A stretch of 27,032 nt of DNA from a virus. The notes beneath the pieces were generated by a model, which was given only the letters and a program-made list of their open reading frames with translations, did not search any database and was not told where the DNA came from. Position 1 is the first letter of the stretch. Each line of letters opens with the position of its first letter. This document shows, piece after piece, positions 50 to 26,975 of this stretch. The stretch spans positions 1 through 27,032 of IMG/VR virus record IMGVR_UViG_3300029977_000010. One strand, written 5' to 3'. Both the position numbers and the translations under genes were made by a program.

Positions 50-124
50 GCCGGTGTAGCTCAATGGCAGAGCAGCGGAATCGTAATCCGCAGGTTGTCC
101 GTTCAAGTCGGATCGCCGGCTCCA
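50..124 (+). tRNA. tRNA-Thr (anticodon CGT), prophage attachment gene
   Basis: The sequence folds as a full cloverleaf. The acceptor is GCCGGTG with CGCCGGC (one G-T pair), the D stem GCTC/GAGC, the anticodon stem GCGGA/TCCGC with loop ATCGTAA, and the T stem GTCCG/CGGAT with loop TTCAAGT. The discriminator is T and the CCA is encoded. Anticodon CGT (82-84) reads the Thr codon ACG. Bases 55-124 are repeated exactly at 26906-26975, so most of this tRNA was supplied by the integrating element and only the first five bases plus the promoter are host-specific. The gene is structurally intact. Confidence 0.95.
55..124 (+). repeat. Left attachment-site repeat (within tRNA-Thr)
   Basis: Seventy bases are identical to 26906-26975. 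Identity stops at base 54 (g here, t in the other copy) and after base 124 (g here, a in the other copy). The repeat covers the tRNA from acceptor position 6 to the terminal CCA. It is an unusually long shared core, since many tRNA-targeting integrases share only the anticodon-loop or T-loop to 3' end portion. Confidence 0.92.
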
Positions 125-1077: not shown

Positions 1078-1746
1078 ATGACAACCACAGCCAAAGAGAA
1101 AGCCAAGCTTGAGAGGAAGATTATGGCAAAGCTGAGAGCACTACCGTATATGGAGAGCTGGGCACTTTACGGAAGGAATCGGGCATATTCCGGTTCTCTA
1201 CCCTTCGGTAAATGTGACCACTGCCATAGGGATACCCGTATCTACGCCTTTGTAGACGGAAAGGAGGTATGTAGCCGCTGTTATGCAAAGCTAAGAAAGA
1301 CTGAATTCAAGCCTCTCCCTCCTAAGACCACTTTCTTCTACTCTGATGATCGGTTCGTGGATTACATGAACTTCAAGCTCGCTGTGGACAAGGCCCTTGG
1401 GAAGGTTAGCCCCCTGACGAGGCGGATTGCTCACCTCCTCATTAAGGGGTACTCCTACAGGGAAATTGCCAATGAACTTGAGGTACCGCTCAGCACCGTT
1501 GCGGCTAAGGCGAAATACTTGTACCGCCTCATCGCTCGATTTGAGCGCTACCAGAACGAAGACGCTTTGCGAAATAGGCTCGTAGCCCAAAGAGAAGCCC
1601 TTGGGTTGAGCCGAAGGGCAATGGCAAGAGAACTTGGTGTAAAACACCACACATTACGCCTTTACGAACTCGGTGAGGTTCTCCCTCCGCTCAACTTCTG
1701 GGAGAAGTATGAGAGCAAGCTTAACGAACTCAAAGACAACAAGTAG
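1078..1746 (+). CDS. DNA-binding regulator: zinc ribbon plus two helix-turn-helix domains
   Basis: The 222-residue protein has three visible modules. Residues 46-68 hold a four-cysteine zinc ribbon (C46-x2-C49...C65-x2-C68). Residues about 111-150 resemble the sigma-70 region 4/LuxR helix-turn-helix (SPLTRRIAHLLIKGYSYREI...). Residues about 165-205 are an XRE/Cro-like helix-turn-helix (REALGLSRRAMARELGVK...LYELGE). A good AAGGAGG site precedes the ATG. It sits directly upstream of the primase gene, separated by a hairpin that could be its operator. The likely role is control of early transcription or the lysogeny decision. This is the only protein in the prophage that looks like a repressor or activator. 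Domain calls are from motifs; the target is inferred. Confidence 0.75.
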   Translation: MTTTAKEKAKLERKIMAKLRALPYMESWALYGRNRAYSGSLPFGKCDHCHRDTRIYAFVDGKEVCSRCYAKLRKTEFKPLPPKTTFFYSDDRFVDYMNFKLAVDKALGKVSPLTRRIAHLLIKGYSYREIANELEVPLSTVAAKAKYLYRLIARFERYQNEDALRNRLVAQREALGLSRRAMARELGVKHHTLRLYELGEVLPPLNFWEKYESKLNELKDNK

Positions 1747-1750
1747 AAGA

Positions 1751-1822
1751 AAGGAGGTTCTCGAACTGGCGCCCTCTGCCTCTTTTACGCCCCCATACAC
1801 AGAGGGCGCCCCATCCACCATG
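1751..1822 (+). promoter_or_regulatory. SD, perfect 11-bp hairpin, then ATG of the primase gene
   Basis: AAGGAGG (1751-1757) comes five bases after the regulator's stop, but the next ATG in frame is at 1820. Between them lies a perfect inverted repeat, GGCGCCCTCTG (1768-1778) and CAGAGGGCGCC (1800-1810), with a 21-base loop. Folding the hairpin would bring the SD within about 19 bases of the ATG. Alternatives are initiation at the in-frame CTG at 1766, eight bases after the SD, or a DNA-level operator for the HTH regulator. Confidence 0.7.
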
Positions 1823-5913: not shown

Positions 5914-6461
5914 GGAAGTTCTTATTGCTGGTGTTCCTCGTCGGTTCTCTTGTCCTGTTCCCTTCCTGTGTGGCTGCACTTCCCGAATTCACTACCTCAC
6001 CCTCGTTTGAGGAGTGGATTTCTAGTCTTGGCACATGGGAGGATTTGGAAGACTTCCTCCTTAGGTGTGAGTATGTCTCTGATTTCGTGCAATTCAACAA
6101 GCGAGAGTACGTCCAGACTCCTGAGGAGTTCTTCCACAATCGTAGGGGAGACTGTGAGGATTTCGCCTACTTTACAGCTTATGTGTTTCATCGGAAGTAC
6201 TGGGCCACCGAGACCTTTGTGGTTTCAGTTTCAGGCTTCTACGACGGTAAGGAGATCAGACATACAACAGCGGTTATTCGCGATCTGGGAGGTTATTTTG
6301 TTGTAGATTTCGCCACAATGTACAGGCGATATTCCACCCTTGAAGAGGCTATAAGAGCAAGCTTCCCATTCCAGAGATTGAGAATCTGGGCAGTTCAGGA
6401 GGTCAAAAGCAACCGAAGCTTGGAATCAGTAACCTTATTGAGTGAATTGGCGAGCCCGTAG
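5910..6461 (+). CDS. Exported transglutaminase-like cysteine protein
   Basis: The 183-residue product begins with a clear signal peptide (charged start, hydrophobic core FLLLVFLVGSLVLF, then PSCVAALP around residue 20). C20 could be a lipoprotein cysteine or part of a signal peptidase I site. The mature part carries a transglutaminase/BTLCP-like triad: C82 in RRGDCEDFAYF, H118 in RHTTAVI and D133 in VVDFAT. Such domains act as cysteine proteases or transferases on proteins or peptides outside the cytoplasm. In a prophage this could alter the envelope, exclude other phages, or help lysis. The last ten bases, including the TAG, lie within the tRNA-Trp gene. Confidence 0.78.
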   Translation: MRKFLLLVFLVGSLVLFPSCVAALPEFTTSPSFEEWISSLGTWEDLEDFLLRCEYVSDFVQFNKREYVQTPEEFFHNRRGDCEDFAYFTAYVFHRKYWATETFVVSVSGFYDGKEIRHTTAVIRDLGGYFVVDFATMYRRYSTLEEAIRASFPFQRLRIWAVQEVKSNRSLESVTLLSELASP

Positions 6462-6527
6462 CTCTAACGGCAGAGCGCCGGACTCCAAATCCGGGGGTTG
6501 CAGGTTCGAATCCTGCCGGACTCGCCA
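6452..6527 (+). tRNA. Phage-borne tRNA-Trp (anticodon CCA)
   Basis: All arms fold: D stem GCTC/GAGC, anticodon stem CCGGA/TCCGG with loop CTCCAAA (anticodon CCA at 6485-6487), T stem GCAGG/CCTGC with loop TTCGAAT, discriminator G and encoded CCA. The acceptor GAGCCCG/CGGACTC has one C-A mismatch at the fourth pair. The three bases before the tRNA (GGC) can pair with the GCC formed by the discriminator and the first two bases of CCA. The upstream gene's stop codon TAG is tRNA positions 8-10. The tRNA must be released from a polycistronic transcript unless a hidden promoter lies in the upstream gene. Confidence 0.92.
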
Positions 6528-8425: not shown

Positions 8426-9652
8426 TTGAATCCTTTCAAGTTCCGCTTCAGACGAAAAGAAGAAAAGCAGAGTAGGGCATTCGGTGCCATCCTTTCCACC
8501 ACCCTTGGACAGCCGGTTTGGTCACCAGGGGGCTACGCTTCTTTTGTGCGAGAAGGCTACAAGAAGAATGTCTACGTCTATGCCTGTGTTCGCCTCATCA
8601 GCATGGCTTGTGCTGGAATCCCCTGGCTTGTGTATCAGATGCAGAAAGGTAAGTTAGAAGAGCTACCACCGGAACACCCACTGGCGTCTCTTTTTGTGCG
8701 CCCAAATCCCTGGCAGGGTTGGAGTAGATTCATCGAGGAAGTTGTTGGGTATCTTCTTCTCTCTGGCAATGCATACATCGAGATGGTTGGGCCAGAAGGT
8801 AAGCCACCAAGAGAGCTTTATGCCCTCCGTCCTGATAGGGTCAGGATTGTGCCTGGGAACCCCATCCAGCCTGTGGCAGGGTACATCTACTCCGTGGGTG
8901 GGCACGAAGTTCGTTTCAAGGCGGAGGATGTCTTACATCTCAAATTCTTCAACCCGCTAGATGATTTCTATGGTATGCCCCCAATTGAAGCGGCAGCTTA
9001 CTCGGTAGATCAGAACAACGAGAGCAGGGCATGGAATGTCGCTCTCTTGCAGAATTCCGCTCGCCCTCCAGGAGCCTTTGTCATTCCTCCCCAGGAGAGG
9101 CTTTCTGAAGAAGAATTCGAACGCTTGCGTGAACAGGTGCGAGAGCTCTACCAGGGAGGGAGAAATGCCGGAAAACCACTGCTCCTTGAGGGAGGTCTTG
9201 ATTGGAAACCAATGGGGTACTCTCCGGCCGACATGGACTGGCTGGAAGGCATTAAGCTCTCAGCACGGGAAATAGCCCTTGCTTACGGTGTCCCTCCTCA
9301 GCTCATCGGGGATAGAGAGAGTTCAACCTATGCGAACTACCAGGAAGCCCGTAAAGCCTTCTATACTGAGACTGTCCTGCCACTTATGGATTGGCTCAAG
9401 GACGAGTTCAATGCAAGGCTTGTACCTAAGTTTGGAAAAGACATGTTCGTTGACTACGACCGTGATGAAATTGAGGCATTACAGGAAGACCGGGAAGCTA
9501 TGTGGGATCGGGTTATCAGGGCAGTAGAACGAGGAGTCCTCACTCCCAACGAAGCCAGAGAACTCCTCGGATATAAGCCCGTCCCTGGTGGAGACTCACT
9601 GTTCATGCCTGGTAACCTACTACCCTACTCCTCTATTGAGGGAGAAGAATGA
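8426..9652 (+). CDS. Portal protein, HK97 family
   Basis: The TTG start has AGGAGGGA nine bases upstream. The 408-residue sequence shows HK97-type portal features: an N-terminal VYACVRLISMACAGIPW segment, HPLASLFVRPNPWQGW, GYLLLSGNAYIEMV, and late ALAYGVPPQLIGD and EARELLGYKPVPGGD motifs. The portal forms the ring at the single capsid vertex through which DNA enters and to which the tail attaches. Its stop overlaps the next ATG by four bases. Confidence 0.92.
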   Translation: MNPFKFRFRRKEEKQSRAFGAILSTTLGQPVWSPGGYASFVREGYKKNVYVYACVRLISMACAGIPWLVYQMQKGKLEELPPEHPLASLFVRPNPWQGWSRFIEEVVGYLLLSGNAYIEMVGPEGKPPRELYALRPDRVRIVPGNPIQPVAGYIYSVGGHEVRFKAEDVLHLKFFNPLDDFYGMPPIEAAAYSVDQNNESRAWNVALLQNSARPPGAFVIPPQERLSEEEFERLREQVRELYQGGRNAGKPLLLEGGLDWKPMGYSPADMDWLEGIKLSAREIALAYGVPPQLIGDRESSTYANYQEARKAFYTETVLPLMDWLKDEFNARLVPKFGKDMFVDYDRDEIEALQEDREAMWDRVIRAVERGVLTPNEARELLGYKPVPGGDSLFMPGNLLPYSSIEGEE

Positions 9653-10512
9653 GGCTCAACCTCTTTGCCCGTCAGTATGCCGAAGAACTTCTTCATCTTT
9701 GTGCCCGGTACGAACCACGCATTGTTGAGTACCTGCAGACTCTTTGGCTTACACAGGTTGAGCGCATGCGATGGAAAGAAATCGAGTACGCTGTGACTTA
9801 CAAGGAAGTCCCTCTCGAGTGGATCTTTGCTTGGCAGGAGGACTACGCCACTTTTGTCCATGAGAAGATCGATCCTGCGTGGCGTGTGGCCATAAAAGAG
9901 GCTGGAGGACTCATAGCTGATGTGATTTCGAAAAAGATTACCCCTTTTGAGTTCACACCAACTCGCCTTCAGGTCATGCGATGGATTGAAAACAGGTCTG
10001 GAGAGCTCATTAGGGGACTGACAGATAGGCAGGTTCAGGCGGTTCGGGACATACTTCGCCATTACACCCTTGAGAGTCCGGTCGATCCATCCACATTAGG
10101 GCGAGTCATCCGCTCAGTGGTAGGGTTGACTCCAAGGGAGGCTTTAGCAGTAGCAAGGTTCAGAGACAGCCTGCTTAGCGAAAACCTCTCATTGGATAAG
10201 GTCGAAAAGCAAGTTGAGCGTTACGTGAAGCATCTCCACATGGAACGAGGGCTTCGCATTGCCAGGACGGAGCTGGGTTATGCCTGGAATGTCGGTGAGT
10301 ACGAGGCAGTGACTGAAGCACAGGAAAAGGGGATCTTGCGTGGGCGGCTGGAAAAAGAGTGGATTACAGCAAGGGACGAGCTCACGTGTCCCATCTGTGG
10401 AGAAATGGACGGGGAGGTTGTAGATAAAGACCAGCCGTTTTCCTGTGGTGTGTTACTTCCACCAGCACATGTCAATTGCCGTTGTGCTCATGCATATCTC
10501 GTGGAGGGGTGA
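9649..10512 (+). CDS. Head morphogenesis protein, SPP1 gp7/Mu F-like
   Basis: The 287-residue protein ends with the family signature: GLRIARTELGYAWN, then EWITARDELTCPICGEMDG and LPPAHVNCRC. The cysteines (CPIC...CRC) and histidine could bind zinc. Proteins of this family associate with the portal and a few copies enter the head. The position between portal and protease is canonical. No scaffold domain is visible. Confidence 0.88.
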   Translation: MRLNLFARQYAEELLHLCARYEPRIVEYLQTLWLTQVERMRWKEIEYAVTYKEVPLEWIFAWQEDYATFVHEKIDPAWRVAIKEAGGLIADVISKKITPFEFTPTRLQVMRWIENRSGELIRGLTDRQVQAVRDILRHYTLESPVDPSTLGRVIRSVVGLTPREALAVARFRDSLLSENLSLDKVEKQVERYVKHLHMERGLRIARTELGYAWNVGEYEAVTEAQEKGILRGRLEKEWITARDELTCPICGEMDGEVVDKDQPFSCGVLLPPAHVNCRCAHAYLVEG

Positions 10513-10514
10513 GA

Positions 10515-11567
10515 ATGAAAGAATTCAGGGCCTATCCATTTGAGGTCAAAGCAGTCAGTGAAGAAGGGCTTGTTGAGGGTTATGCTTCTGTCTTCAGTGT
10601 CGTTGACTATGACAATGACGTGATCGAACCAGGGGCCTTTACTAAAACGCTCCAGGAGAGAAAGCACGTTCCCATTCTCTGGCAGCACAACCCTCAGGAG
10701 CCCATTGGTGTTACTGTTCAGGCACATGAAGACACCAAGGGGTTGCGCGTCATTGGGCAACTGAACCTTGATACCCAGCGTGGGCGTGAAGCTTTTTCTC
10801 TGCTCAAGCAGGGTGCGTTGCAGGGATTGTCAATTGGCTTTGATGTAGTGAAGCAGATCTGGGAAGGAAGCGTACGGCGTATTAAAGAGGTTCGCCTTTG
10901 GGAGTGGTCACTTGTGACTTTCCCCGCAAACCCCCTTGCTACTGTGACTTCCGTGAAAGGCGTCGTGCCGTATCAGGATCTCCCACTCGCTGATAGAGAT
11001 CGCCGGTGGGATGCTGACGCAGCAAGAGCCAGAGTGGCACGCTGGGCTGGTGGCCCAGATAAGGACAAGATCGATTGGGGAAAGTATCGTAAAGCTTTCC
11101 TCTGGTACGACGAGGATACACCTGACAACTACGGGTCGTACAAGCTCCCCATTGCTGATGTGATTGACGGGAAACTCTACGCTATCCCTCGTGGCATCTT
11201 TGCCGCTGCAGCTGCAATTCAGGGAGCAAGAGGTGGCGTGGACATCCCTGAGGACGACATCCCAGCAATCAAGCGCCACTTGGAACGCTACTATGCAAGG
11301 CTTGACATGACTCCTCCCTGGAAACAGGAAGAAGCTCTGTCGGTGGCTCTGCTTGACGTAAAGAGTATTGCTCAGGAAATCCTTGAGCAGAAGTATGGCC
11401 GGACAATTTCAGCAGCCAACCGTGCCAAAATCGAGCAGGTCATCGAGATCCTTCAGTCACTCATTGCTGAGGAGCCGCAGGACAGCACTCCTGAAGGCAA
11501 TGAGCCGCTCGAGAAGGCACTCGATGAAGCCCTGCGTAACCTAAAACTCCTCTGCGAGGTGATATGA
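10515..11567 (+). CDS. HK97-type prohead protease with extra C-terminal domain
   Basis: The start at 10515 follows GGAGGGG; an earlier start at 10476 would lie inside the previous gene. Residues 1-145 are the U35/HK97 prohead protease with catalytic H58 (LWQHNP) and S106 (QGLSIGF) and the typical WEWSLVTFPANP. Residues about 150-270 are an added domain (PYQDLPLADRDRRWDADAA ... FLWYDEDTPDNYGSYKLPIA ... RHLERYYARL) seen in other phage proteases or neighbouring proteins. The final part is helical and acidic and could serve as scaffold (delta-like). It should cleave scaffold and capsid N-termini during prohead maturation. Confidence 0.88.
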   Translation: MKEFRAYPFEVKAVSEEGLVEGYASVFSVVDYDNDVIEPGAFTKTLQERKHVPILWQHNPQEPIGVTVQAHEDTKGLRVIGQLNLDTQRGREAFSLLKQGALQGLSIGFDVVKQIWEGSVRRIKEVRLWEWSLVTFPANPLATVTSVKGVVPYQDLPLADRDRRWDADAARARVARWAGGPDKDKIDWGKYRKAFLWYDEDTPDNYGSYKLPIADVIDGKLYAIPRGIFAAAAAIQGARGGVDIPEDDIPAIKRHLERYYARLDMTPPWKQEEALSVALLDVKSIAQEILEQKYGRTISAANRAKIEQVIEILQSLIAEEPQDSTPEGNEPLEKALDEALRNLKLLCEVI

Positions 11568-11568
11568 A

Positions 11569-12687
11569 ATGGAAGAGAAAGTGATGGAACTTATGAAACT
11601 CACTCAGGCTCTGCGGGAGAAGTTTGAGCAGACCGAGAAGGGCTTTGTAACCAAAGCTGAATTCCTTGAGTTCCAAGAAAAGCTGGATAAGGACTTCGAC
11701 GCCATCAAGACTGCTCTCCAACGCCCTATGCTTGCTGGAAAAGACGCAGTAGCGGATGAGAAGAAGGCTGTGTTCCTGAGGTGGATGCGTGGCGAAGCAT
11801 TGACCAGGGAAGAGAAGGCGCTCGTTTCTGATGCTACTGGACAGATTCTGATTCCTGAATCCCTCGAAGCTGAGATTTACCGCTCCCTGCCCAAGATCAC
11901 CATTATCCGCAGCCTTGCTACGGTGCGGCAGATTAACACCGACCGCATCCGGAAGCGAAGCCTGACTGAGGTGCGAGTGGGCTGGGGCAAACTCGAGACC
12001 GGAACTAACCTAACAGAGTCGACGTTGACTCCTTCCGATGACTATCAATATGTTGAGGACCTCTATGGTCTCACCAAGATCGGCGAGGACGAACTGATGG
12101 ACACTGATGTGTCGCTGGAGAGCATCGTGGCCGACTCCTTCGCCAGGGCGATTGCTGAGGCCGAGGACACTGCTTTCGTCGTCGGTCGCGGTCACACCTA
12201 TAAAGAGCCAGAGGGCATCCTCAACGACAGTGATGTAGAGGTCGTCGAAGCTGGGCAGGCTGGAGCCATTACCATTGACGATGTGATCTCTCTCTGCTAT
12301 GCACTGCCTCCTCAGTACAGGAAGAACGCTGTGCTCATCATGAACTCCCAGACCGAGAAGGCCCTGCGCCTACTCAAGACCACCGATGGCGTTTACCTCT
12401 GGCAGCCCAGCCTCCAGGCAGGAGCCCCAGCAACATTCAACGGGTACCCGGTCTATAACCAGGACGACATTCCCACCATCCCCCAGGCCGGCACTGGAGC
12501 CAAGGTCATCATCTTTGGTGACATCAAGGCTGGGTATCGGGTGCTTGACCGCCTTGGCGTGACGATCCAGCGTCTGACCGAGCTCTACGCCGAGCAAGGC
12601 CTTGTTGGCTTCAAGGTCCACTTCCGCGTTGGTGGCGGAGTGATTCGCCCCGACGCCATCAAGGTCCTGATGGTGCCCGAGGCATGA
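11569..12687 (+). CDS. Major capsid protein, HK97 fold
   Basis: The 372-residue protein has an N-terminal coiled coil (about residues 1-60), expected to act as an internal scaffold and be removed by the protease. The HK97-fold body follows, with typical segments: ILIPESLEAEIYRSLPK, EDELMDTDVSLESIVADSF, FVVGRGHTYKEPEGIL, VLIMNSQTEKALRLLK, GYPVYNQDDIP and FRVGGGVIRPDA. The codons are somewhat richer in G and C at third positions than in neighbouring genes, as expected for the most highly expressed virion protein. Its stop overlaps the next ATG. Confidence 0.93.
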   Translation: MEEKVMELMKLTQALREKFEQTEKGFVTKAEFLEFQEKLDKDFDAIKTALQRPMLAGKDAVADEKKAVFLRWMRGEALTREEKALVSDATGQILIPESLEAEIYRSLPKITIIRSLATVRQINTDRIRKRSLTEVRVGWGKLETGTNLTESTLTPSDDYQYVEDLYGLTKIGEDELMDTDVSLESIVADSFARAIAEAEDTAFVVGRGHTYKEPEGILNDSDVEVVEAGQAGAITIDDVISLCYALPPQYRKNAVLIMNSQTEKALRLLKTTDGVYLWQPSLQAGAPATFNGYPVYNQDDIPTIPQAGTGAKVIIFGDIKAGYRVLDRLGVTIQRLTELYAEQGLVGFKVHFRVGGGVIRPDAIKVLMVPEA

Positions 12688-12932
12688 AGGTGCGAGTACT
12701 CCGGAGCATTGCTACAGGGAGCCGGGCCTATGAGCCCGGCTCTGTCATTGAAATAGACGACCTACTCGCTGAGGTATGGCTTCGGGCCGGCGTGGTTGAG
12801 CTGGATGGCTCTCACGAGCCAGAGGAGGTAAAAGAAGAGGATGTTCCTTCAGAAGATTGGGCTGAGAGAGGAGTTACCACTTCTCGAACAGGCAAAGCAG
12901 CATCTCCGAGTAGACGGAAACGAAGAGGATAG
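12684..12932 (+). CDS. Small head protein after the capsid gene
   Basis: The 82-residue product has a small beta-rich N-terminal region (KVRVLRSIATGSRAYEPGSV...EVWLRAGVVEL) like short proteins often found just after phage capsid genes, where an SH3-like fold or head-decoration role has been proposed. The rest is charged and probably disordered. It overlaps the capsid stop by four bases and the next gene by 92 bases. A strong hairpin lies within its first 20 codons. Confidence 0.65.
   Translation: MKVRVLRSIATGSRAYEPGSVIEIDDLLAEVWLRAGVVELDGSHEPEEVKEEDVPSEDWAERGVTTSRTGKAASPSRRKRRG
12719..12742 (+). other. Strong hairpin just after the capsid gene
   Basis: GAGCCGGGC (12719-12727) and GCCCGGCTC (12734-12742) form a perfect 9-bp GC-rich stem with a six-base loop, about 30 bases beyond the capsid stop and inside the next reading frame. 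No T-run follows, so it is not a standard terminator. It may protect or define the capsid mRNA 3' end. Confidence 0.6.
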
Positions 12933-13380
12933 CTACATTACCTCCCTCATTACTGCCGCCAGAGAAGCAATTGAGGATTACACTCTCTCCTCGATTGCAC
13001 TTCAGGAGTTGGAGGCACGGTACAACAAAGTGAATGGTGTTCTACTCCTTCCCAGACCACCCATCCAGGAGATCATCTCTGTAACAGTTGACGGAGTGGA
13101 TGTAACTGAGGCGTGCTCACTCATCAGCACAAGGGCTGTCTACTTTGACCAACCGTTTCAGGCTTCAAGACCTGGTGGTGTGGTGATAAGGTATGTTGCT
13201 GGGTATGCGGACGTCCCACAGGTATTGAAACAGGCTATCCTCCTCCTTGTAGCCCACCTCTATGAATCAAGAGAGGGTCAGGCTTCAGAGGTCAAGTACA
13301 ATGCTCAGGTACCGTCAGGAGTAAGTCTCCCTCCAACTGTAGCACAGCTTGTGCGTAGGTACAGAGTGTGGCTGGTATGA
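12841..13380 (+). CDS. Head-tail connector, gp6-like
   Basis: The 179-residue protein has the usual opening of this family (LLEQAKQHLRVDGNEEDSYI, then TSLITAAREAIEDYT), the middle LLLPRPPIQEIISVTVDGV and a C-terminal helical part (VLKQAILLLVAHLYESRE). gp6-like connectors form a ring below the portal. The ATG lies after GAAGAGG, within the preceding gene, giving a 92-base overlap in another frame. Confidence 0.87.
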   Translation: MFLQKIGLREELPLLEQAKQHLRVDGNEEDSYITSLITAAREAIEDYTLSSIALQELEARYNKVNGVLLLPRPPIQEIISVTVDGVDVTEACSLISTRAVYFDQPFQASRPGGVVIRYVAGYADVPQVLKQAILLLVAHLYESREGQASEVKYNAQVPSGVSLPPTVAQLVRRYRVWLV

Positions 13381-13697
13381 GAACTGGAGATCTTCGCCAC
13401 CGCATCACACTTCAGGAATTGGTAAGCATTCCAGACGGAATGGGTGGTTTCTCTGAAGGGTGGCAAGATGTAGCCACTGTCTGGGCTTCTGTAGAACCCC
13501 TACGTGGCCAGGAACGCTACCTTGCCCAGCAGGCCGTTCAGGAAATCACCCATAAGGTTACCATCAGGTACCGCAAGAGTGTGTCACCTAAAATGCGGAT
13601 TCTGTTTGGTAACCGTGTTCTTTCGATCGTAGCCGTCATCGACCCTGGTGAACGGCGCAAGTGGCTTGAACTTCTGTGCTTGGAGGTTACATCATGA
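13377..13697 (+). CDS. Head closure protein (SPP1 gp16/HK97 gp9-like)
   Basis: The ATG overlaps the connector stop by four bases. The 106 residues match the head-tail joining family: GDLRHRITLQELVSIPDGMG, WQDVATVWASVEPLRGQE, THKVTIRY and the ending VDP/IDPGERRKWLEL-type strand. It plugs the connector after DNA packaging and receives the tail. Confidence 0.87.
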   Translation: MRTGDLRHRITLQELVSIPDGMGGFSEGWQDVATVWASVEPLRGQERYLAQQAVQEITHKVTIRYRKSVSPKMRILFGNRVLSIVAVIDPGERRKWLELLCLEVTS

Positions 13698-14023
13698 GCG
13701 TCAAACTTACCGTCAGAGGAGTCGAAGCAGCCATTGCTGCAGTAAAGGCTAAGGCCCAAAAGTACGTGGAAAGGGCTTCCCAAACTGTCGCTGAATCAGC
13801 CCTGAACGTTGCGCGGGAAGCGAAGAACCTTGCCCCAGTGAGAACTGGGTATCTCAGGAATTCCATCCAGGTTGAGTTCCCGGAAAAACTCAAGGCTTAC
13901 GTTAAAGCTTATGCCTCCTATGCCCATTTTGTTGAGTATGGCACCAGAAAGATGAGTGCCAGGCCCTTCATGCGCCCGGCCGTGGAAATGGTGCGGTCAA
14001 GGCTTAGGAGTGGCAGGAAATGA
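13694..14023 (+). CDS. HK97 gp10-like tail-joining protein
   Basis: The start at ATG 13694 follows GGAGG and overlaps the preceding stop. The 109-residue protein shows the hallmark NLAPVRTGYLRNSIQVEF and HFVEYGTRKMSARPFMRPA segments of the gp10/minor tail family. These proteins act at the head-tail interface in siphoviruses. Confidence 0.88.
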   Translation: MSVKLTVRGVEAAIAAVKAKAQKYVERASQTVAESALNVAREAKNLAPVRTGYLRNSIQVEFPEKLKAYVKAYASYAHFVEYGTRKMSARPFMRPAVEMVRSRLRSGRK

Positions 14024-14397
14024 CAGGCGCTGTTCAGAAAGCAGTTTACGCTAAGCTCTCACAGTCACTCTCTGTTCCTGTTTATGATAGTGTTCCTCAT
14101 GGCGCCCAACTCCCCTACGTTGTCCTTGGCGAGGACTTTATCACCGACTTCTCGACCAAAGACATCTTTGGGGAGAACTGCCTCCTATCCCTTCACGTGT
14201 TCAGTGGCTACCGTGGAATGCGTGAGGTCAAGGAAATTGTGGACATGGTAGTGGATGCCCTGCGTAATGGGGTCCACTCAGACACATTTGTGGTTGCTTT
14301 TTCAGGGCTGGATAACATCCGCTTTTTCAAAGAAGAAGATGGTGTCCAGCATGGTGTTGTACAAATTCGCATGAAAATCTTAAGGCGAGGTGAATGA
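14020..14397 (+). CDS. Tail terminator/completion protein (DUF3168-like)
   Basis: The 125 residues follow the gp10-like gene with a four-base overlap. The features fit the family: an N-terminal helix, VYDSVPHGAQLPYVVLGED, LHVFSGYRGMREVKEIVD and a C-terminal beta strand (HGVVQIRMKI). Such proteins cap the tail tube at its head end. The assignment comes from motif pattern and gene order. Confidence 0.82.
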   Translation: MTGAVQKAVYAKLSQSLSVPVYDSVPHGAQLPYVVLGEDFITDFSTKDIFGENCLLSLHVFSGYRGMREVKEIVDMVVDALRNGVHSDTFVVAFSGLDNIRFFKEEDGVQHGVVQIRMKILRRGE

Positions 14398-14399
14398 AC

Positions 14400-14807
14400 A
14401 TGGCAACTCGAGGCGTTGACGTTCTGATCTATGTCAATACTGGTAGTGAGACAGAGCCGACATGGACGGCAATTGGTGGACAGAGGAACGCAACACTCAC
14501 AGAAACGGTTGAAACGATTGACATCAGCACCAAGGACTCCGAGTGGCAGGAATTTGAGTACGCTCTTGGAACCTGGACGCTGTCCTGTGACGGCATCTAT
14601 CTGGACAACGATGTAGCGCTCGAGAAACTCATTTCTGCCCTCAGGAGCCGTGCGAAGGTCAAGGTGCGGATCAAGGAAGGTGAAACCTTCACTCAGGAGG
14701 GACTTGCTCTGGTTACCAGCGTCGAGCGCGCTGCTCCCTATGATGACGTCAAGACCTATTCTGTCGAGCTCCAGGGAGCTGGTCCGCTGACAACTCCTAG
14801 CATTTGA
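14400..14807 (+). CDS. Major tail (tube) protein, TP901-1-like
   Basis: The ATG at 14400 is seven bases after GAGGTG, better placed than the ATG at 14394. The 135-residue protein has the tube-protein pattern: GQRNATLTETVETIDISTKD, TWTLSCDGIYL and the end of a beta-barrel (YSVELQGAGPL). It polymerises around the tape measure to form the tail tube. Confidence 0.88.
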   Translation: MATRGVDVLIYVNTGSETEPTWTAIGGQRNATLTETVETIDISTKDSEWQEFEYALGTWTLSCDGIYLDNDVALEKLISALRSRAKVKVRIKEGETFTQEGLALVTSVERAAPYDDVKTYSVELQGAGPLTTPSI

Positions 14808-14825
14808 GGTCTGAGGTGACAAAAT

Positions 14826-15137
14826 ATGCCTAAAGCCTTCACGAAGATCAAGCTCGATAAGGAACGCACGCTGAGATTCACCGTTAAGTCACTCCTTGAA
14901 CTCGAGGAACACTTTGGTAGGCCTTACCACCAGTTCAAACCTGAGGAGTGGACTTTGAAGGACCTCGCCTTCATCCTGGCGTGTGGGCTGAAGCACGAGG
15001 ACCCTGAAATGAACCTTGACAAAGCTGCCGAACTTATGGATGAGGCTGAGGATCTTGGCTATGTCTTTGAGAAACTTGCTGAGGCCTACACTTCAGCATT
15101 CGTAGGAAAAAAGGGGGCGAAGAGTCAGGATACGTAG
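14826..15137 (+). CDS. Tail assembly chaperone, short (gpG-like) form
   Basis: The 103-residue protein (TLRFTVKSLLELEEHFGRPY, LKDLAFILACGLKHED) lies between tube and tape-measure genes, the fixed position of the siphovirus chaperone. Its codons near the end form the slippery heptamer A_AAA_AAG, and the reading frame that continues in -1 is open into the second half. The short form is the unshifted product. Confidence 0.85.
   Translation: MPKAFTKIKLDKERTLRFTVKSLLELEEHFGRPYHQFKPEEWTLKDLAFILACGLKHEDPEMNLDKAAELMDEAEDLGYVFEKLAEAYTSAFVGKKGAKSQDT
15107..15113 (+). promoter_or_regulatory. Programmed -1 frameshift site A_AAA_AAG
   Basis: The zero frame reads GGA AAA AAG GGG, so the heptamer is in the X_XXY_YYZ register known from dnaX-type slippage. 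It is followed by a run of five G. The zero frame stops at 15137, while the -1 frame is open from here to 15433. Position and phase match the lambda G-GT arrangement. Confidence 0.85.
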
Positions 15138-15433
15138 TCGCTCTGACGTATGACGAGGCCGTTCGTCTGGGCAGCGGCCTCCTTGGGCTCCCACTAAGCG
15201 AGGTTCTTTCAATGACCCCACTTGAGCTCATCTGGGCAGTGGAAGGCAGGAGCGAGTTCCACAATTTCCTCTACGAAAGCATGGTTACTGCTGGCTGGCT
15301 CTCCGCTGCCCTTGAGCGTCAAAAACGCATTCCTCCTCTTGAGAAGCTTCTCAAGTGCAAGAGAAGGGTGAAGAGTAATGAGGAAGCCCGAAAAGAATTT
15401 GAGGAGTTAAAGAGGGAATTCGCAGATGGCTGA
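15113..15433 (+). CDS. Tail assembly chaperone C-terminal (T-like) part, made by frameshifting
   Basis: This -1 frame has no plausible independent start near its beginning; the first ATG is at 15212 and lacks a good ribosome site. It continues directly from the slippery site, giving a 202-residue fusion (96 residues of the short chaperone plus 106). Segments are YDEAVRLGSGLLGLPLSEVL, LIWAVEGRSEFHNFLYES and a charged helical end. In lambda the T domain recruits the tube protein to the tape measure. The stop overlaps the tape-measure start by eight bases. Confidence 0.82.
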   Translation, partial: GGEESGYVVALTYDEAVRLGSGLLGLPLSEVLSMTPLELIWAVEGRSEFHNFLYESMVTAGWLSAALERQKRIPPLEKLLKCKRRVKSNEEARKEFEELKREFADG

Positions 15434-18400
15434 CGCCACAATTGTCGTTGAAGTCATAGGCGACATCTCAAAAGTTAATAGTGCCCTCCAACAGTTCGAG
15501 AATACGACAAAGGATACCTTCGGCAAGCTTGAGGGATTAGGAAAGACGCTCTCGGCTACCGTCACAGCACCACTTGTCGGGGTGGGGACTGCAGCCATCA
15601 ATGCGGCAATGAATTTCAATAGCGCCATGGCCAACGTTGCGGCCCTAATTCCCGAGAATACTCAGAGGGTTGAGGAATTGAAAAGTGCTGTTCAGTCCCT
15701 CTCAACGGAACTTGGGAAATCCACCGACGACCTTGCTAAGGGTCTGTACGAGGTCATCTCAGCATTTGGTGATTCCGAAGAGACAATGGGGCGACTGGAG
15801 GCTGCTGCAAAACTTGCCAGGGCTGGTGTGGCGGATACTACTGAATCCATCAGGATGCTCGCTGTAGTCACAAAGGCTTACGGTGATACTTCCCTCGAGG
15901 CTGTCCAAAAAGTCTCCGACTTTGCCCTGATGACCGTCAAGTTAGGGCAGACAACCCTCCCTGAACTCGCAAACGCCCTTGGCAAAGTAGCCCCCATTGC
16001 CTCGACGTTGGGCGTCTCCCTTGAGGAGCTCCACACCGTCTTTGCTACTCTCACTGGGGTCACCGGAAATGCCGCCGAGGTGGCCACCCAGTTCAGGGCA
16101 ATCCTGAGCGAATTCCTAAAACCCAGCGAGGAACTCGCAAAGGTCATCGCCGAGATGGGATATGAATCCGGTCCCGAGTTTATTAGGACCATGGGGGGTG
16201 TTGTCCCCGCTATAAAAGCCCTGTACGAGCACGTCAACAAAGACGAAGCGGCATTTTCAACACTATTCGGAAGGATTGAGGGCATCAACGCCGCACTGGC
16301 GCTCGTCGGCCCTCAGGCGGAAACTTTCAGCGAAAAGCTCCAGCAAATGGGGCAGGCTGCCGGGTTCACAGAGGAGGCATTCAAGGCACAGACACAAGGT
16401 ATTAACGCTGCTGGTTTCGCCTGGGAGCAGTTTAGGGCAAAGCTGCAGGTGTTCATGCAGCAGATTGGCGACAAGCTCCTCCCTGTTCTCGCCCGACTTC
16501 TTGATAACGTCTCAGTTCTCTTTGATTGGTTCTCCAAGCTACCTCCCAAGGTGCAGGATTTCCTCATCATCCTTGCTGGTGCTGCCGCTGCTTCCGGTCC
16601 CATTATGATGGCTGTGGGTGCTATTGGTCAGGCCACAAGTGCTTTTGGTTCCTTTGCCTCTTTGTTTGCCGCAGGAGGAGTGTTAGGCCCATGTGGTCTG
16701 GTTGCTGTGGGTGTGGCCGCAGTAGCCCTACTTATCTACCAGAACTGGGACAAAATCAAGGAATTCCTCCTAAACACCTGGGAGGGAATCAAGTCTGCTG
16801 CTGAGGCAGTTTGGGGAGGCATTAAAGGGTTTTTCACCAGGCTATGGGACGGCTTAATAGAGTACCATCGGACCACGATGGAGGCGTGGCATTCCCTCTT
16901 CTCCACAGCTTGGGAAGGAATCAGAGGCGTTGCTGAGACCGTCTGGGGTAATATTAAGGGCTTCTTCCTCAAGATCTGGGACGGCCTTGAAGCCTACCAC
17001 CAGGCCTCCATGGAACAGACCCACAGCATTCTTTCCTCTATCTGGGAGAAGACCAAAGGGGTTGCCGAAACCATTTGGGGTGGCATCAAGAGTTTCTTTC
17101 TCAGGGTTTGGGAAGGTGTTAACGCTTACCACGAGGCCTCGATGGAGCAAACCCACAACATTCTTACTACCACATGGGCACTGATTAAAAAAGGTGCTGA
17201 GACAACCTGGGATGGTATCAAGAGCTTTTTCCTAAGCCTCTGGGATGGCATCAAGACGAAGTGGGAAGCCGCCTGGGCAGGTATTGGTGGTTTTCTGGAA
17301 AAGACTTGGGAAAGCATTACCGAAAAAGCCTCAAAGGCCTGGAGTAAGATTATATCAGGGGCACAGTCGCTGTGGGATAAGCTCGTTGGACACTCTATTA
17401 TTCCCGACATGGTTACCGCCATCAACGAAGAGTTCAATCGTATTGACTCCTCTATAGCTGTGAAGAGGATGAAAACCTTGGAGCAGAAGTTCCCAGAGAT
17501 CTCCGGGGCACTTGTGGTAAGCGCGAAGCAGATGGTCCAAGAGCTCAATGGTGTCTTTGGGAGTCTCAACATTGCGCCCGCTGCATCAGAGATCGAAGGC
17601 TTTGGAATGAGCTTTGAGGCTTCTATTGACAAGGTCTTGCGGGGAGCCCTGCAAATGGAGGAGGCCTTTGGTGGGGTTATTAACTGGAATGCTCAACTTA
17701 AAGCCTCCTTTGACTCTCTCGAGATGGGTGTAGAGAGTACCACAAAATCGATAGACGCCCTGATGGATAAAGTTCTTGGTGTGGTTAACCAGATAGGGAA
17801 CATTGTCATCAACATGAGCTTCGGCGAACAGCCCACGGTAGGGCAGGTCGGCGGTTTACTCTCCAGCATCCTAAACTTCTTTGTGGGGATTCCCAAATGG
17901 ATCTCTACCGTACTTCAGACGATTTTCGGCTGGATTGATAACTACAGAAAGAAACTCGAGGAATTGATTAAGAGCGTTCTCGGGCAGATGACTGGAGCCC
18001 TCAAGGAGTTCTTTGAGGCTCCCTCCCTCCAGCAAGCCATAAACACCTTTGGTGAAAGACTCAAGAATATAGTGTACCAAATGCTTGTTGACGCTGTAGT
18101 GAAGGCTATTGTGGCTAGCGAAGCGGTGAGGAGCGCAGCAGAAGCCCTTGGGAAGGCTATAAATGAAGCCATCAAGAAGGCTACGGCTGGAGGTGTGTTT
18201 GACCCCCAGACCTTCATGTCTATCGCTGGTCCTGCCATAAATGCTTTTGCCCAGTTCTGGCAAAACACAATGCTTCCTGTTCTTGAGCAGACTTTCCAAG
18301 CACTTCAGCCCTACAACCCACTCGCCGGAGAGCCACAGTATGTTACCGTGAGTGGTACATTTACCAAGTCGTTAGATCTCGGATGGGTAGCGAATACTGA

Positions 18401-18542: not shown

Positions 18543-18859
18543 AGCTTGGTGGGTATGTACTACCGGAACCAAATGAGTACAGCATAGTAAGTGAAACACG
18601 AACAACTGAAACCGTGCTTGTCGATGGATCCAGGCGGTACATTAAAATGCCTAGAAAGCGTACTCTTGTCCTGCATTGGGTTCTCATCGACAAGGCTACT
18701 AAAGAGCTCATTGAGGAGCTGAACAGCAAGGAAATACCAATGCTGCTTGAACTTGACACCCACACCCTTTGGGTTGTTGGGTATTCAGACCCTGAATTTC
18801 GGCGAGTAAAGGGAACGCAAGAGAGGTACTCCTGCTCCTGGGAGTTGAGAGAGCCATGA
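18539..18859 (+). CDS. Small tail-tip protein following the tape measure
   Basis: The ATG overlaps the tape-measure stop by four bases, and the gene overlaps the next by four. The 106-residue protein is mostly beta (YIKMPRKRTLVLHWVLIDKA, EIPMLLELDTHTLWVVGYSD). Its position suggests a distal-tail or baseplate component joining the tube to the hub. No definite family is recognised. Confidence 0.72.
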   Translation: MKLGGYVLPEPNEYSIVSETRTTETVLVDGSRRYIKMPRKRTLVLHWVLIDKATKELIEELNSKEIPMLLELDTHTLWVVGYSDPEFRRVKGTQERYSCSWELREP

Positions 18860-21378
18860 AGTCATTGCGGGGTACGGAGAACAACCCGATACCGTTGACA
18901 CAGGAAGACTTTGAGACCACAATTGTACACCCATTTGCCAAGGTTTATGTGTACAAGAATGGGTGGCAGCTTGTCCCAGATGTGGTGAGCTTCGATCTTG
19001 ATTTTGAGGTTGGGGATACCCACAACGTTGTTTCGGCAGGCCTCAACCTTACCGTCGATGATAGCGAGCGAAAGTACCACCCTCTTTCAGGCACTGAGTA
19101 CAGCGATTACTTCGCTGTTCGACGTAAGATCAAGGTCTATGTTGGAATAAAGAAGGACGTAGATGGTGATGGTGTCCCCGAAACTCCATACACCTGGCCA
19201 TACTTCGAAGGTATCATTGCCAACGCCAACTTTGAAAAACTTGCAGGACGCAGACAAGTCAAAATCAAAGCGTTAGACTATTGCAGTTTATTGCAGGGAT
19301 ACCGGTTTGACGACATGGCCTACTGGGGTTCGAGCACCACAATCTACATCACGGAAAACGAGTTTGAGTACGATTTACCCTCAGAGGCTACTGGTGTTTT
19401 CAGGTGCAGGCTCGAGGGTGCCGACTTCAACGATTGGACTTACAACTTCGAGACTGGAAAAATCGCCATCACCAAAGACGGTGTTTCTGGGAGACTAACA
19501 GTATACTACTTTACACCACAGAGTCTTATTACGGTGATGCGAGATATCCTCCTTGCGTCCAGGGCCATTTCCTCTGCTTCAGACTTCGTTTATCAGGACC
19601 CTGGGAAAATCATTCAGAGGGTGTGGTTTGACAAAGGAACAACCGCACAGGAAGCTATAGAAAAACTCTCACAGCTCGTGCCTGGGTACTATTTCTTTTT
19701 CGACGGCGATGGCAAGGCCCACTTCCACTCCCTCTCTCCTGAAGAGAGTGTCTTCACCTTCTCAGAGGGCAAAAATATCGAGTCTGTTGAGGTAGTCTCC
19801 TCTGACAGGGCCTTCTACAACGGGGTGGAGGTAAAAGGGGAAGAACGCATAAGAAATGAGTACTACCGCAAAGAAATCGTACTTGGAACAGCAAGCGGGT
19901 CGCTCGATGCATTTACGATTTCCAAGGAGCACAATTTTGAGTTTACTGGAACCTGGAAACTGCGCTACGAGCTGAATGTTGGGAACAAGAACGGAATCTC
20001 TTCGGAACTTCGTGAGACACCTCAGGGAGCAAGGATTGTTGTTACCCACAATCCTGAGTACTCTCGAGAGGAAACCGAGACTTATCTTGGTTCTATTGAA
20101 GGCACCCTTGGAGTACTGAAAAACACAGAGGAAAAACAGACCCTGACGCACGTAGCTGCCACAAGGGTTAGATGTGTTGTCGATGAGAGCGTGAACAGGT
20201 ATGGTTTGACCACCTCTTTGGAAAGGAAAGACTTCTGGACTACAGAGGTTTCGGTGTCTCATGACCCACTGCGTAATCTCTCAGGGACGGTCGTCACACT
20301 TGGCACGGTTCAGAGTATAGCAAGTCCTGGGGGGAACGAGATTACTATCAGCTTTCCTTCAGGCAAGCTCTTTGGTAGTGTGAAGTGGAAGGCAGAGTAT
20401 GAAACCGGATGGGGAGCACAGTTCCAGAGTGGGTCAAAGACATGGAATATCGCCGGACTGGGAAGTTGGATTGTACAGGTCAACCTATCCCAGGACCATC
20501 TTGGGCAGCACAGGTATGAAGCAACGGTACCGGCTGATATTCCCGATGCGACTGTACTGACTACTATAGCCAGCAATGCGTTCACTATACCGCCCTACAC
20601 TGAGGACTACGTAACGATTGAGGGTGGAGCAGGTGATTACCTCGACGAACAGCTGACCTATCAAGCAGACCCCGGCCTTGAAATACTCGGCATCACGACG
20701 GCATCCCCTATTAACAACCCAAAACAGAATATTTACATTGTATACTTCAAGAATCCCACCAACTCTTCCAAAAACCTTTACCTGACAACAAAAGGGAAAC
20801 TGCGCGGAGTATTCTTCCGTCTTGAGCCCTACGACAGCAGTGATAGCTGGGTTCGGTTCAAGATAACCGTGACTGGGAGGCCAAGCTGGACTGGTACACG
20901 TACTTTCTCGGTGAATGTTTACTCCAGACGCATGCCTCATAACACGAGGGTCAATCAGGTTTACGAAGATGGTACCAAGGCGGTCTTCGTTGCTACCTGT
21001 GATTGGGGAAATCCTCCTGTGACTATTACTTGCACTGGACAGGAAGCAATCCCAAGGCACTACAAGGTGCTTCTCTATGGACTAAGACTGATTCCTCGTG
21101 ATTACTACATCACTCTTTATGGGCGTGAGCAGGTGCCAAAGCTTGAGCAGAGTGTGTATACAGTGAGAAAGCTTGCCGATGATGTAATACTGGCAACTGG
21201 TGGGCCCAAGTTTCTAAGTATCCGAAACCACCTCATCCAGTCCAAGGAGGAGGCTGACGCACTGGCACAGCAGCTACTGAACAGGTTCTCTACTCTTACC
21301 AGTCGGTATAGGATTCAGGTGACTTGCCCACCTCCAATTGAGGTGGGAGATACGATAAGGTGCGTCGGAACTTATTGA
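18856..21378 (+). CDS. Tail hub/baseplate protein, apparently C-terminally truncated
   Basis: The protein has 840 residues. The N-terminal third has the look of gp27-like hub proteins (VVSFDLDFEVGDTHNVVSAG, YFEGIIANANFEKLAG, RRQVKIKALDYCSLLQGYRF, PGYYFFFDGDGKAHFHSLSP). The middle is beta-rich, and the end returns to the hub fold (DALAQQLLNRFSTLTSRY, then PPPIEVGDTIRCVGTY). In this fold the VGD segment is normally followed by a last beta hairpin. Here a stop follows, and such a hairpin is instead encoded at 21531-21611 beyond the iteron repeat. Everything upstream is intact. Confidence 0.8.
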   Translation: MKSLRGTENNPIPLTQEDFETTIVHPFAKVYVYKNGWQLVPDVVSFDLDFEVGDTHNVVSAGLNLTVDDSERKYHPLSGTEYSDYFAVRRKIKVYVGIKKDVDGDGVPETPYTWPYFEGIIANANFEKLAGRRQVKIKALDYCSLLQGYRFDDMAYWGSSTTIYITENEFEYDLPSEATGVFRCRLEGADFNDWTYNFETGKIAITKDGVSGRLTVYYFTPQSLITVMRDILLASRAISSASDFVYQDPGKIIQRVWFDKGTTAQEAIEKLSQLVPGYYFFFDGDGKAHFHSLSPEESVFTFSEGKNIESVEVVSSDRAFYNGVEVKGEERIRNEYYRKEIVLGTASGSLDAFTISKEHNFEFTGTWKLRYELNVGNKNGISSELRETPQGARIVVTHNPEYSREETETYLGSIEGTLGVLKNTEEKQTLTHVAATRVRCVVDESVNRYGLTTSLERKDFWTTEVSVSHDPLRNLSGTVVTLGTVQSIASPGGNEITISFPSGKLFGSVKWKAEYETGWGAQFQSGSKTWNIAGLGSWIVQVNLSQDHLGQHRYEATVPADIPDATVLTTIASNAFTIPPYTEDYVTIEGGAGDYLDEQLTYQADPGLEILGITTASPINNPKQNIYIVYFKNPTNSSKNLYLTTKGKLRGVFFRLEPYDSSDSWVRFKITVTGRPSWTGTRTFSVNVYSRRMPHNTRVNQVYEDGTKAVFVATCDWGNPPVTITCTGQEAIPRHYKVLLYGLRLIPRDYYITLYGREQVPKLEQSVYTVRKLADDVILATGGPKFLSIRNHLIQSKEEADALAQQLLNRFSTLTSRYRIQVTCPPPIEVGDTIRCVGTY

Positions 21379-21415
21379 TCCTCCTCAATACTTGAGTGTC
21401 TCATTGTAAGGTTCC

Positions 21416-21513
21416 ACCGTCAAGACCGTCAGAACCGTCATGGTTTTCAAATCGATTTTCCCCAGCTATATATCGGTTGTAAAACCCTGACGGTCTTGAC
21501 GGTTTTGACGGTG
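21416..21513. repeat. 98-bp iteron repeat, copy 2 (inverted, late region)
   Basis: This is the exact reverse complement of 3951-4048. Identity ends sharply at both sides (c21415 and c21514 do not continue the match). A further single ACCGTCA lies at 21534-21540. The copy is in a non-coding gap that seems to have been created inside the hub gene. The minus strand reads through it in the same frame as the primase linker, but no gene starts there. Confidence 0.93.
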
Positions 21514-21614
21514 CCCTGGCTTTGTTGGGGTACACCGTCAAGTCCATTGTGGATTCCAGCCGAATTCGACCAACGTTGGTTCTTCGTCGGTACCCCACAA
21601 GACAGGTTCAATAG
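21513..21614 (+). pseudogene. Detached C-terminal remnant of the tail hub gene
   Basis: Directly after the repeat a frame reads ALALLGYTVKSIVDSSRI and then RPTLVLRRYPTRQVQ before TAG at 21612. This is a good final beta hairpin for the hub fold. The TAG overlaps the next gene's AGGAGG, which is the packing seen elsewhere in this operon and marks this as the original gene end. No start codon or ribosome site precedes it, and the frame contains a TAA within the repeat (21480), so it is probably not translated alone. Confidence 0.65.
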
Positions 21615-21626
21615 GAGGTGTCTACA

Positions 21627-22124
21627 TTGCCTGTTACCTCTGATAACTTGAAGTTTTATGGTTCTCAATACATGCCAAACAACGACACTGACATCAATGG
21701 AGGCGCCATTGACCTAGGCAAACCCCTTACTGGCCTCATTGATGAGGTGTTTTCCGGCCTGTACTCGGACGAACCTGGTGGTTCTCCTGTCGTGCAGTAC
21801 AGGAAGATATTCATACGTAATGAGAGTTCCTCCGACCTCCTTGAAGCCAAGGTTTGGATTGACTACGATCCCTTGAACCAGCTCAAGATAGCCCTTGAAC
21901 CAGTTAAAAATGGCACAGATACCTCATCTGACCGTGTCACTGCTCCGGCTGGGTATGAATTTGTCGATGCCCCAAATGAAGAAAATGCCCTTCCTGTTCC
22001 TGAAGGTATACTTGGCGCTGGAGAGTGCATCGGCGTCTGGCTTAAAGTAGAAATAGAGCCCGGAATTCCTCCAGTTGATTTGGTTACGGCCAGAGTAAAG
22101 ATTAAGGGCAAGACAACCGCTTAG
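21627..22124 (+). CDS. Virion-associated tail protein
   Basis: The TTG at 21627 is eight bases after AGGAGG; the GTG at 21618 overlaps the site itself. The 165 residues are beta-rich (NLKFYGSQYMPNNDTDINGG, VVQYRKIFIRNESSSDLLEA, GECIGVWLKVEIEP), resembling phage tail-surface or appendage-attachment proteins. It begins the fibre cluster after the hub. A conserved family is suspected but not named with confidence. Confidence 0.7.
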   Translation: MPVTSDNLKFYGSQYMPNNDTDINGGAIDLGKPLTGLIDEVFSGLYSDEPGGSPVVQYRKIFIRNESSSDLLEAKVWIDYDPLNQLKIALEPVKNGTDTSSDRVTAPAGYEFVDAPNEENALPVPEGILGAGECIGVWLKVEIEPGIPPVDLVTARVKIKGKTTA

Positions 22125-26905: not shown

Positions 26906-26975
26906 TGTAGCTCAATGGCAGAGCAGCGGAATCGTAATCCGCAGGTTGTCCGTTCAAGTCGGATCGCCGGCTCCA
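26906..26975 (+). repeat. Right attachment-site repeat (tRNA-Thr 3' copy)
   Basis: Seventy bases are identical to 55-124. The five bases before it do not restore the acceptor helix (GGGTT instead of GCCGG), so four of the first five acceptor pairs are lost and this copy should not yield a working tRNA. It marks the right end of the prophage. The following 57 bases are host chromosome without a recognisable feature. Confidence 0.92.

Follow-up and report, generated by a model that had tools for sequence, protein, structure and literature searches.

Origins of the PICI/SaPI type consist of two iteron sets around an AT-rich region and lie just 3' of rep; the initiator binds the iterons and melts the core (PMC6092414, PMC7581432). 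In SPP1, the initiator gene contains oriL; about 12-13 kb from it, in the late region, is oriR, where the bound initiator is thought to stall the fork and to trigger the switch to concatemers (PMC6316719, PMC3485210). In pRN1, a 100-bp hairpin origin is located behind the Prim-Pol/SF3 gene and works when relocated (PMC4234260).

We analyzed a stretch of 27,032 bases (hereafter, the window), which is the whole of virus record IMGVR_UViG_3300029977_000010. The window is a prophage bounded by a 70-bp direct repeat in tRNA-Thr, and a domain search located a tyrosine integrase at its right end. It contains two inverted copies of a 98-bp unit, copy 1 inside the gene of a Prim-Pol/D5 primase-helicase and copy 2 behind the stop codon of a tail hub-like gene (Table 1). 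The unit is quite probably the iteron origin of this primase-helicase, duplicated into the hub gene, where copy 2 would most likely be a second initiator-binding site.

The unit resembles SaPI/PICI origins in its two iteron sets, in the AT-rich region that they flank and in its place by the end of a primase-helicase gene. The initiators of those origins have a C-terminal DNA-binding domain, for which the predicted winged helix is a candidate in the window. Both copies show opposed iteron sets around an AT-rich region, but only copy 1 lies at the primase-helicase gene, where genes of this kind have their 3' end. Unlike these islands, the window belongs to a phage that carries capsid and tail genes itself, its putative origin is read through by the initiator frame, and the unit is present in two identical copies. 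As in SPP1, one site lies within the gene of the initiator and another among the late structural genes, the sites of the window being presumed origins. Both SPP1 origins are bound by the same initiator. SPP1, however, uses gp38 with a helicase loader and a DnaB-type helicase, whereas the presumed initiator of the window is a Prim-Pol/D5 protein; the SPP1 origins are similar in organization but are not one identical inverted unit of 98 bp, and oriR lies in an intergenic segment whereas copy 2 lies in a truncated tail gene. The pair may work like oriL and oriR without being a member of that class, since its presumed initiator is not of the gp38 family with helicase loading of the gp39/gp40 type. 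The unit shares with pRN1 a hairpin-forming sequence of about 100 bp just 3' of a gene for Prim-Pol, SF3 helicase and winged helix, but the pRN1 origin has no iterons and is present in a single copy. In satellite phage P4, a single primase-helicase initiator is served by two sites in cis, ori and crr. The second does not reproduce the first in full, and the P4 iterons differ in sequence from those of the window. The winged helix of P4 (1ka8) is similar to the fold predicted in the window. P4 alpha has a Toprim primase, unlike the Prim-Pol of the window (PMC4234260).

Table 1. Features of the window that bear on the duplicated unit
Feature	Position	Strand	Basis
attL, 70-bp direct repeat within tRNA-Thr	55-124	+	Repeat search, tRNA call
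Prim-Pol / D5_N / DUF5906 primase-helicase, presumed initiator	1673-4489	+	Pfam PF09250, PF08706, PF19263
C-terminal winged-helix domain of the helicase, presumed origin-binding	3632-3949	+	AlphaFold model, structure search
Copy 1, within the primase ORF (about aa 760-792)	3951-4048	-	Inverted match, primase alignment
Part of the primase gene with homology to the left flank of copy 2	4051-4083	-	Flank alignment
Tail hub-like protein (phrog_1887 C-terminal match), about 30 C-terminal residues probably lost	18856-21378	+	Profile match, alignment
Probably donor-derived left flank of copy 2	21379-21415	+	21379-21412 homologous to primase coding DNA by copy 1
Copy 2, 98-bp origin-like unit	21416-21513	+	100% inverted match to copy 1
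Possible severed hub C-terminus, GYTVKSIVDSSRIRPTLVLRRYPTRQVQ-stop	21528-21615	+	Length fit, TAG overlap with SD, weak profile support
Tail gene that follows, starting at TTG after AGGAGG (21614-21619)	21627-22124	+	ORF list; alternatively GTG at 21618
attR, identical 70-bp repeat	26906-26975	+	Repeat search

Structure of the 98-bp unit

An earlier note on this DNA had described a 98-bp repeat, and the repeat proved to be real: copy 2 was the exact reverse complement of copy 1 (98/98, 100%), 17.4 kb away. What the earlier note had overlooked is the likely identity of the unit as an iteron origin that is at home in the primase-helicase gene. Copy 2 reads ACCGTCAAG / ACCGTCAGA / ACCGTCA, followed by an AT-rich core and the inverted TGACGGTCT / TGACGGTTT / TGACGGTG, that is, three 9-bp iterons (ACCGTCARR), a core and three inverted iterons. 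The AT content was 64% in the core and 50% in the window. Inverted iterons of period 9 were expected zero times in shuffled sequences, and the unit folded as DNA formed a hairpin of -29.6 kcal/mol (z -8.3). A search of viral_contigs with an exact 25-nt pattern revealed no copies beyond the two in the window. An exact direct repeat beside copy 1 was also considered and rejected; the letters there are ACACCTTC, not ACACCGTC.

Primase-helicase and position of copy 1

The best sequence match of the primase-helicase in the PDB was 7ola, a DNA primase. Its ORF reads through copy 1 in frame, and the predicted winged helix (AlphaFold pLDDT 83.7) is encoded directly before copy 1. Structure comparison of this domain gave matches to the RFX DNA-binding domain 1dp7 (Z 10.4) and to the P4 origin-binding domain 1ka8 (Z 7.8, 2.3 A, 73 residues), and the C-terminal domain of AsfvPrimPol was also among the matches. 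A Z score below 8 would be weak by itself, but here both the domain and the type of protein correspond to those of P4.

When the window primase was aligned with nine D5 primases from the survey described below, it followed them to their C-termini. The nine proteins end roughly ten to twenty residues past the point aligned with WVGLKWK in the window, at which copy 1 begins. Copy 1 thus sits close to where the primase genes of relatives end and their putative origin starts. A peptide search of viral_contigs revealed no neighbours of the window primase.

Iteron clusters at other D5 primase genes

Ten D5-type primase loci from diverse phages and plasmids, fetched regardless of repeats, were scanned for tandem-plus-inverted short repeats. 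A cluster was found near the primase gene in seven of the ten (0 to 0.3 expected per locus), behind or at the end of the gene in most of these and 520 bp behind it in one. The iteron sequence varied among loci; AcaML1 had the same TGACGG/CCGTCA core, 19 bp after the primase stop. The C. bescii plasmid pATHE01 (L078, 1737-1910) had six ATTCACTCT iterons and their inverted partners within coding sequence; its AAA-ATPase gene (18-2174), which matches the Prim-Pol protein of the window, reads through this origin-like cluster.

A second survey covered viral contigs and gave at least 121 loci, nearly all found by TGACGG at period 9 three times. Among the matches listed, an inverted partner was present in 12 of 121 loci, several of which are close relatives, leaving perhaps five independent cases. 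A D5 gene adjoined 11 of these 12 by HMM and the twelfth by ORF inspection, compared with 0 of 109 listed loci without an inverted partner (Fisher 9e-15). Most surveyed clusters were 100-105 bp long, and the gap from stop codon to putative origin was 2-110 bp in 16 of 17 loci. The same plan at D5 genes of phages and plasmids suggests that many phage origins could be found from the 3' end of a D5 gene.

Other arrangements were also observed in the contigs. In L043 (2965-3125), three GGTGGACAC repeats, a spacer of about 110 bp and three inverted copies directly follow a helicase-like gene (1347-2906) that by eye is possibly DUF3987-like; the origin plan is the same and the initiator type is another. 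In L051 (760-815), a GC-rich phage contig, CCGTCAG / CTGACGG iterons lie within the last codons of a helicase-like gene. L101 and L144 contain several TGACGG period-9 triples in one orientation, without an inverted partner.

Insertion at the 3' end of the hub gene

The hub ORF encodes 840 amino acids, stops with TGA at 21376-21378 and ends in IEVGDTIRCVGTY. The stop directly behind the GD segment, pointed out in the earlier note, leaves 8 residues beyond the GD column in the alignment, compared with 33-58 in 13 tail proteins that are members of the hub family or relatives; the outermost values belong to L205 and L006, whose alignments are doubtful, and the other eleven have 38-49. The phrog_1887 match on the C-terminal region of the hub breaks off at column 622 of 670. 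The distance from the hub stop to the next gene start is 248 bp, the largest gap in the late operon, where the gaps next in size measure 128 and 74 bp and the majority of genes overlap. Because of the short C-terminus relative to other proteins, the interrupted profile match and the size of the gap, truncation of the hub at this position is well supported.

Searches of viral_contigs, genome_contigs and phages revealed no close hub relative, and none of them gave the uninterrupted homologue that the earlier note had asked for. With the peptide IEVGDTIRC, a degenerate DNA search gave two matches, both to unrelated fibre-like proteins. Capsid relatives carry other tail modules, so an empty site cannot be read from their hubs. 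A near relative is represented by two contigs, L005 and L040, from another sample (IMGVR 3300043280), with identities to the window of 97% over 11682-16765 and 91% over 8555-11804, respectively; the hub region is outside this cover (8555-16765), and the window is the one record that spans it.

From the first base past the hub stop codon onward, the sequence is homologous to coding DNA of the primase that adjoins copy 1 on the corresponding side of the unit. Over 21379-21412, 25 of 34 positions were identical (score 17, reached by 0 of 2000 dinucleotide shuffles). The motif TCAATASTTGAGTGT was present in the window in these two flanks only (0.09 expected at up to 2 mismatches). The right flank of copy 2 showed no homology to the surroundings of copy 1 in the flank alignment. 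Since a truncated hub and an abnormal gap are accompanied by donor-flank homology from the first base after the stop, it is well supported that about 135 bp (roughly 21379-21513) were inserted where the hub gene ends. This size is within the 130-160 bp proposed earlier, and the insert extends beyond the unit; from the flank homology, it probably came from a primase gene that already carried the embedded unit. The target duplications for which the earlier note had wanted the flanks searched were absent, the longest shared word being 5 nt, which is chance level.

The two copies differ at 0 of 98 positions in the unit and at 9 of 34 in the co-copied flank (Fisher 2e-6). The core of copy 2 therefore seems to be maintained: if unit and flank are of one age, the unit was held constant by selection or gene conversion. 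The complete identity could alternatively come from a recent copying of the unit from a relative with a diverged flank, or from gene conversion, and in both cases copy 2 could be without function.

Reading frame downstream of copy 2

A frame beyond the repeat whose TAG overlaps the AGGAGG before the next gene had been noticed earlier and is present (GYTVKSIVDSSRIRPTLVLRRYPTRQVQ). Its length and TAG position fit an interpretation as the severed end of the hub. The 28 residues suit the missing piece in length, and when they were joined at the hub end, the phrog_1887 score rose from 20.0 bits for the hub alone to 23.0, compared with 19.4-22.1 for 17 control tails; two other join variants scored 20.3 and 20.7. 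With an HMM built from the 13 tail proteins, however, the join was matched or beaten by 454 of 500 shuffles. Pairwise comparison with tail proteins and codon usage gave nothing in favor of the frame as hub C-terminus, and a degenerate DNA search with GYTVKSIVD matched 0 contigs. The 28 residues are thus a plausible candidate for the lost hub C-terminus, with thin homology support, and we regard the chances for and against as balanced.

Possible role of copy 2 and alternative explanations

From the architecture and position of the unit, the identity of its copies, the flank homology, the hub truncation and the winged-helix fold prediction, all read from the sequence, we infer initiator binding, origin activity of the copies and a possible role for copy 2. 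Both inverted iteron sets would be bound by the winged helix of the primase-helicase, and the AT-rich core that they enclose would be opened by the helicase. Copy 1 would be the original origin, located as usual where the initiator gene ends, except that here the reading frame continues through it. About 135 bp, comprising the origin and about 35 bp of adjoining primase DNA, may have been transferred as an inverted copy to the 3' end of the hub gene, an insertion that would have removed or cut off roughly the last 30 hub residues. Copy 2 may then have been kept intact as a second or late origin, or as a fork barrier with bound initiator.

We lean slightly toward such an active role of copy 2 as second origin or fork barrier. 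More tentatively, the prophage may represent a temperate phage with a D5/PICI-type initiator and two identical inverted origins, in which the initiator-occupied late copy, through a programmed block of the fork or as a late origin, switches replication from circles to concatemers, a convergent equivalent of SPP1 oriR obtained at the cost of the hub C-terminus. An apparently broken tail gene would then become a replication feature. If this is true, a second exact late copy would be an independent oriL/oriR-like arrangement with an unrelated initiator, and the late-origin role, as fork barrier or start site, could be tested with a single-protein initiator.

Alternatively, copy 2 may be a passive duplicate of the origin that arose by illegitimate recombination or template switching during replication and landed in the hub by chance. 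Two clusters were found in the window alone among 15 records with TGACGG-type origins (0 of the 14 others, several of which are fragments), a structural gene was damaged, and a target duplication is absent, all of which fit such an event. GC skew also shows no sign of copy 2 use: at fourfold sites it did not differ between the segments bounded by the copies (p 0.10), and the cumulative extremes at 4399 and 20479 were rejected as a sign of origin use because fourfold-site skew shows no such difference. A perfect core beside a drifted flank, however, is unexpected for a neutral duplicate of one age unless it was homogenized, and we consider a passive duplicate somewhat unlikely.

It is improbable that copy 2 acts on RNA or transcription, with an mRNA hairpin or DNA-bound initiator limiting expression or stabilizing the mRNA of the hub and the next gene. 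The strong hairpin, seen in the DNA fold, does lie in the largest gap of the late operon. However, the unit has no terminator-like site, its exact core and iteron identity exceed what a hairpin needs, and copy 1 has the same sequence in a replication gene.

A short palindromic element that is mobile (MITE/REP/RPE-like) and had entered the primase in frame and the hub destructively would account for the palindrome, the sharp ends and two copies of which one lies within a coding frame. The earlier proposal that the unit can move is borne out to the extent of one duplication in one record and found no parallel in the 14 others. Against an element of this kind, unrelated iterons in the same plan occur at D5 genes of distant phages and plasmids, with one cluster per record, and the copied segment takes in primase coding DNA. 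With two copies in the window, none in viral_contigs by the exact 25-nt pattern and no target duplication of the kind that many such elements leave, a generic mobile repeat was rejected in favor of a duplicated D5-type origin, and we judge it very unlikely.

A wrong assembly join at the repeat could be suspected from a 98-bp repeat in a single record, but a join error would not be expected to leave an exact core next to a homologous flank that has drifted, and the gene order is sensible at both sites (tail operon, primase frame), which makes an artefact hardly credible. Least probable of all is a hub made whole again by bypassing during translation or by excision of the insert from the RNA, as the earlier note had allowed: a downstream frame of fitting length is present, but it differs from the hub frame and thus would not be reached by stop-codon readthrough, no bypass or intron features were seen, the primase reads the unit through in frame, and the hub identity of the fragment is unproven.

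Minor features were also observed in the prophage. Behind copy 1, the primase has a C-terminal extension of about 145 aa (4052-4489) with no Pfam match, in which a CxxC and a helix-turn-helix-like sequence are visible by eye. A tRNA-Trp gene with anticodon CCA is located at 6452-6527.
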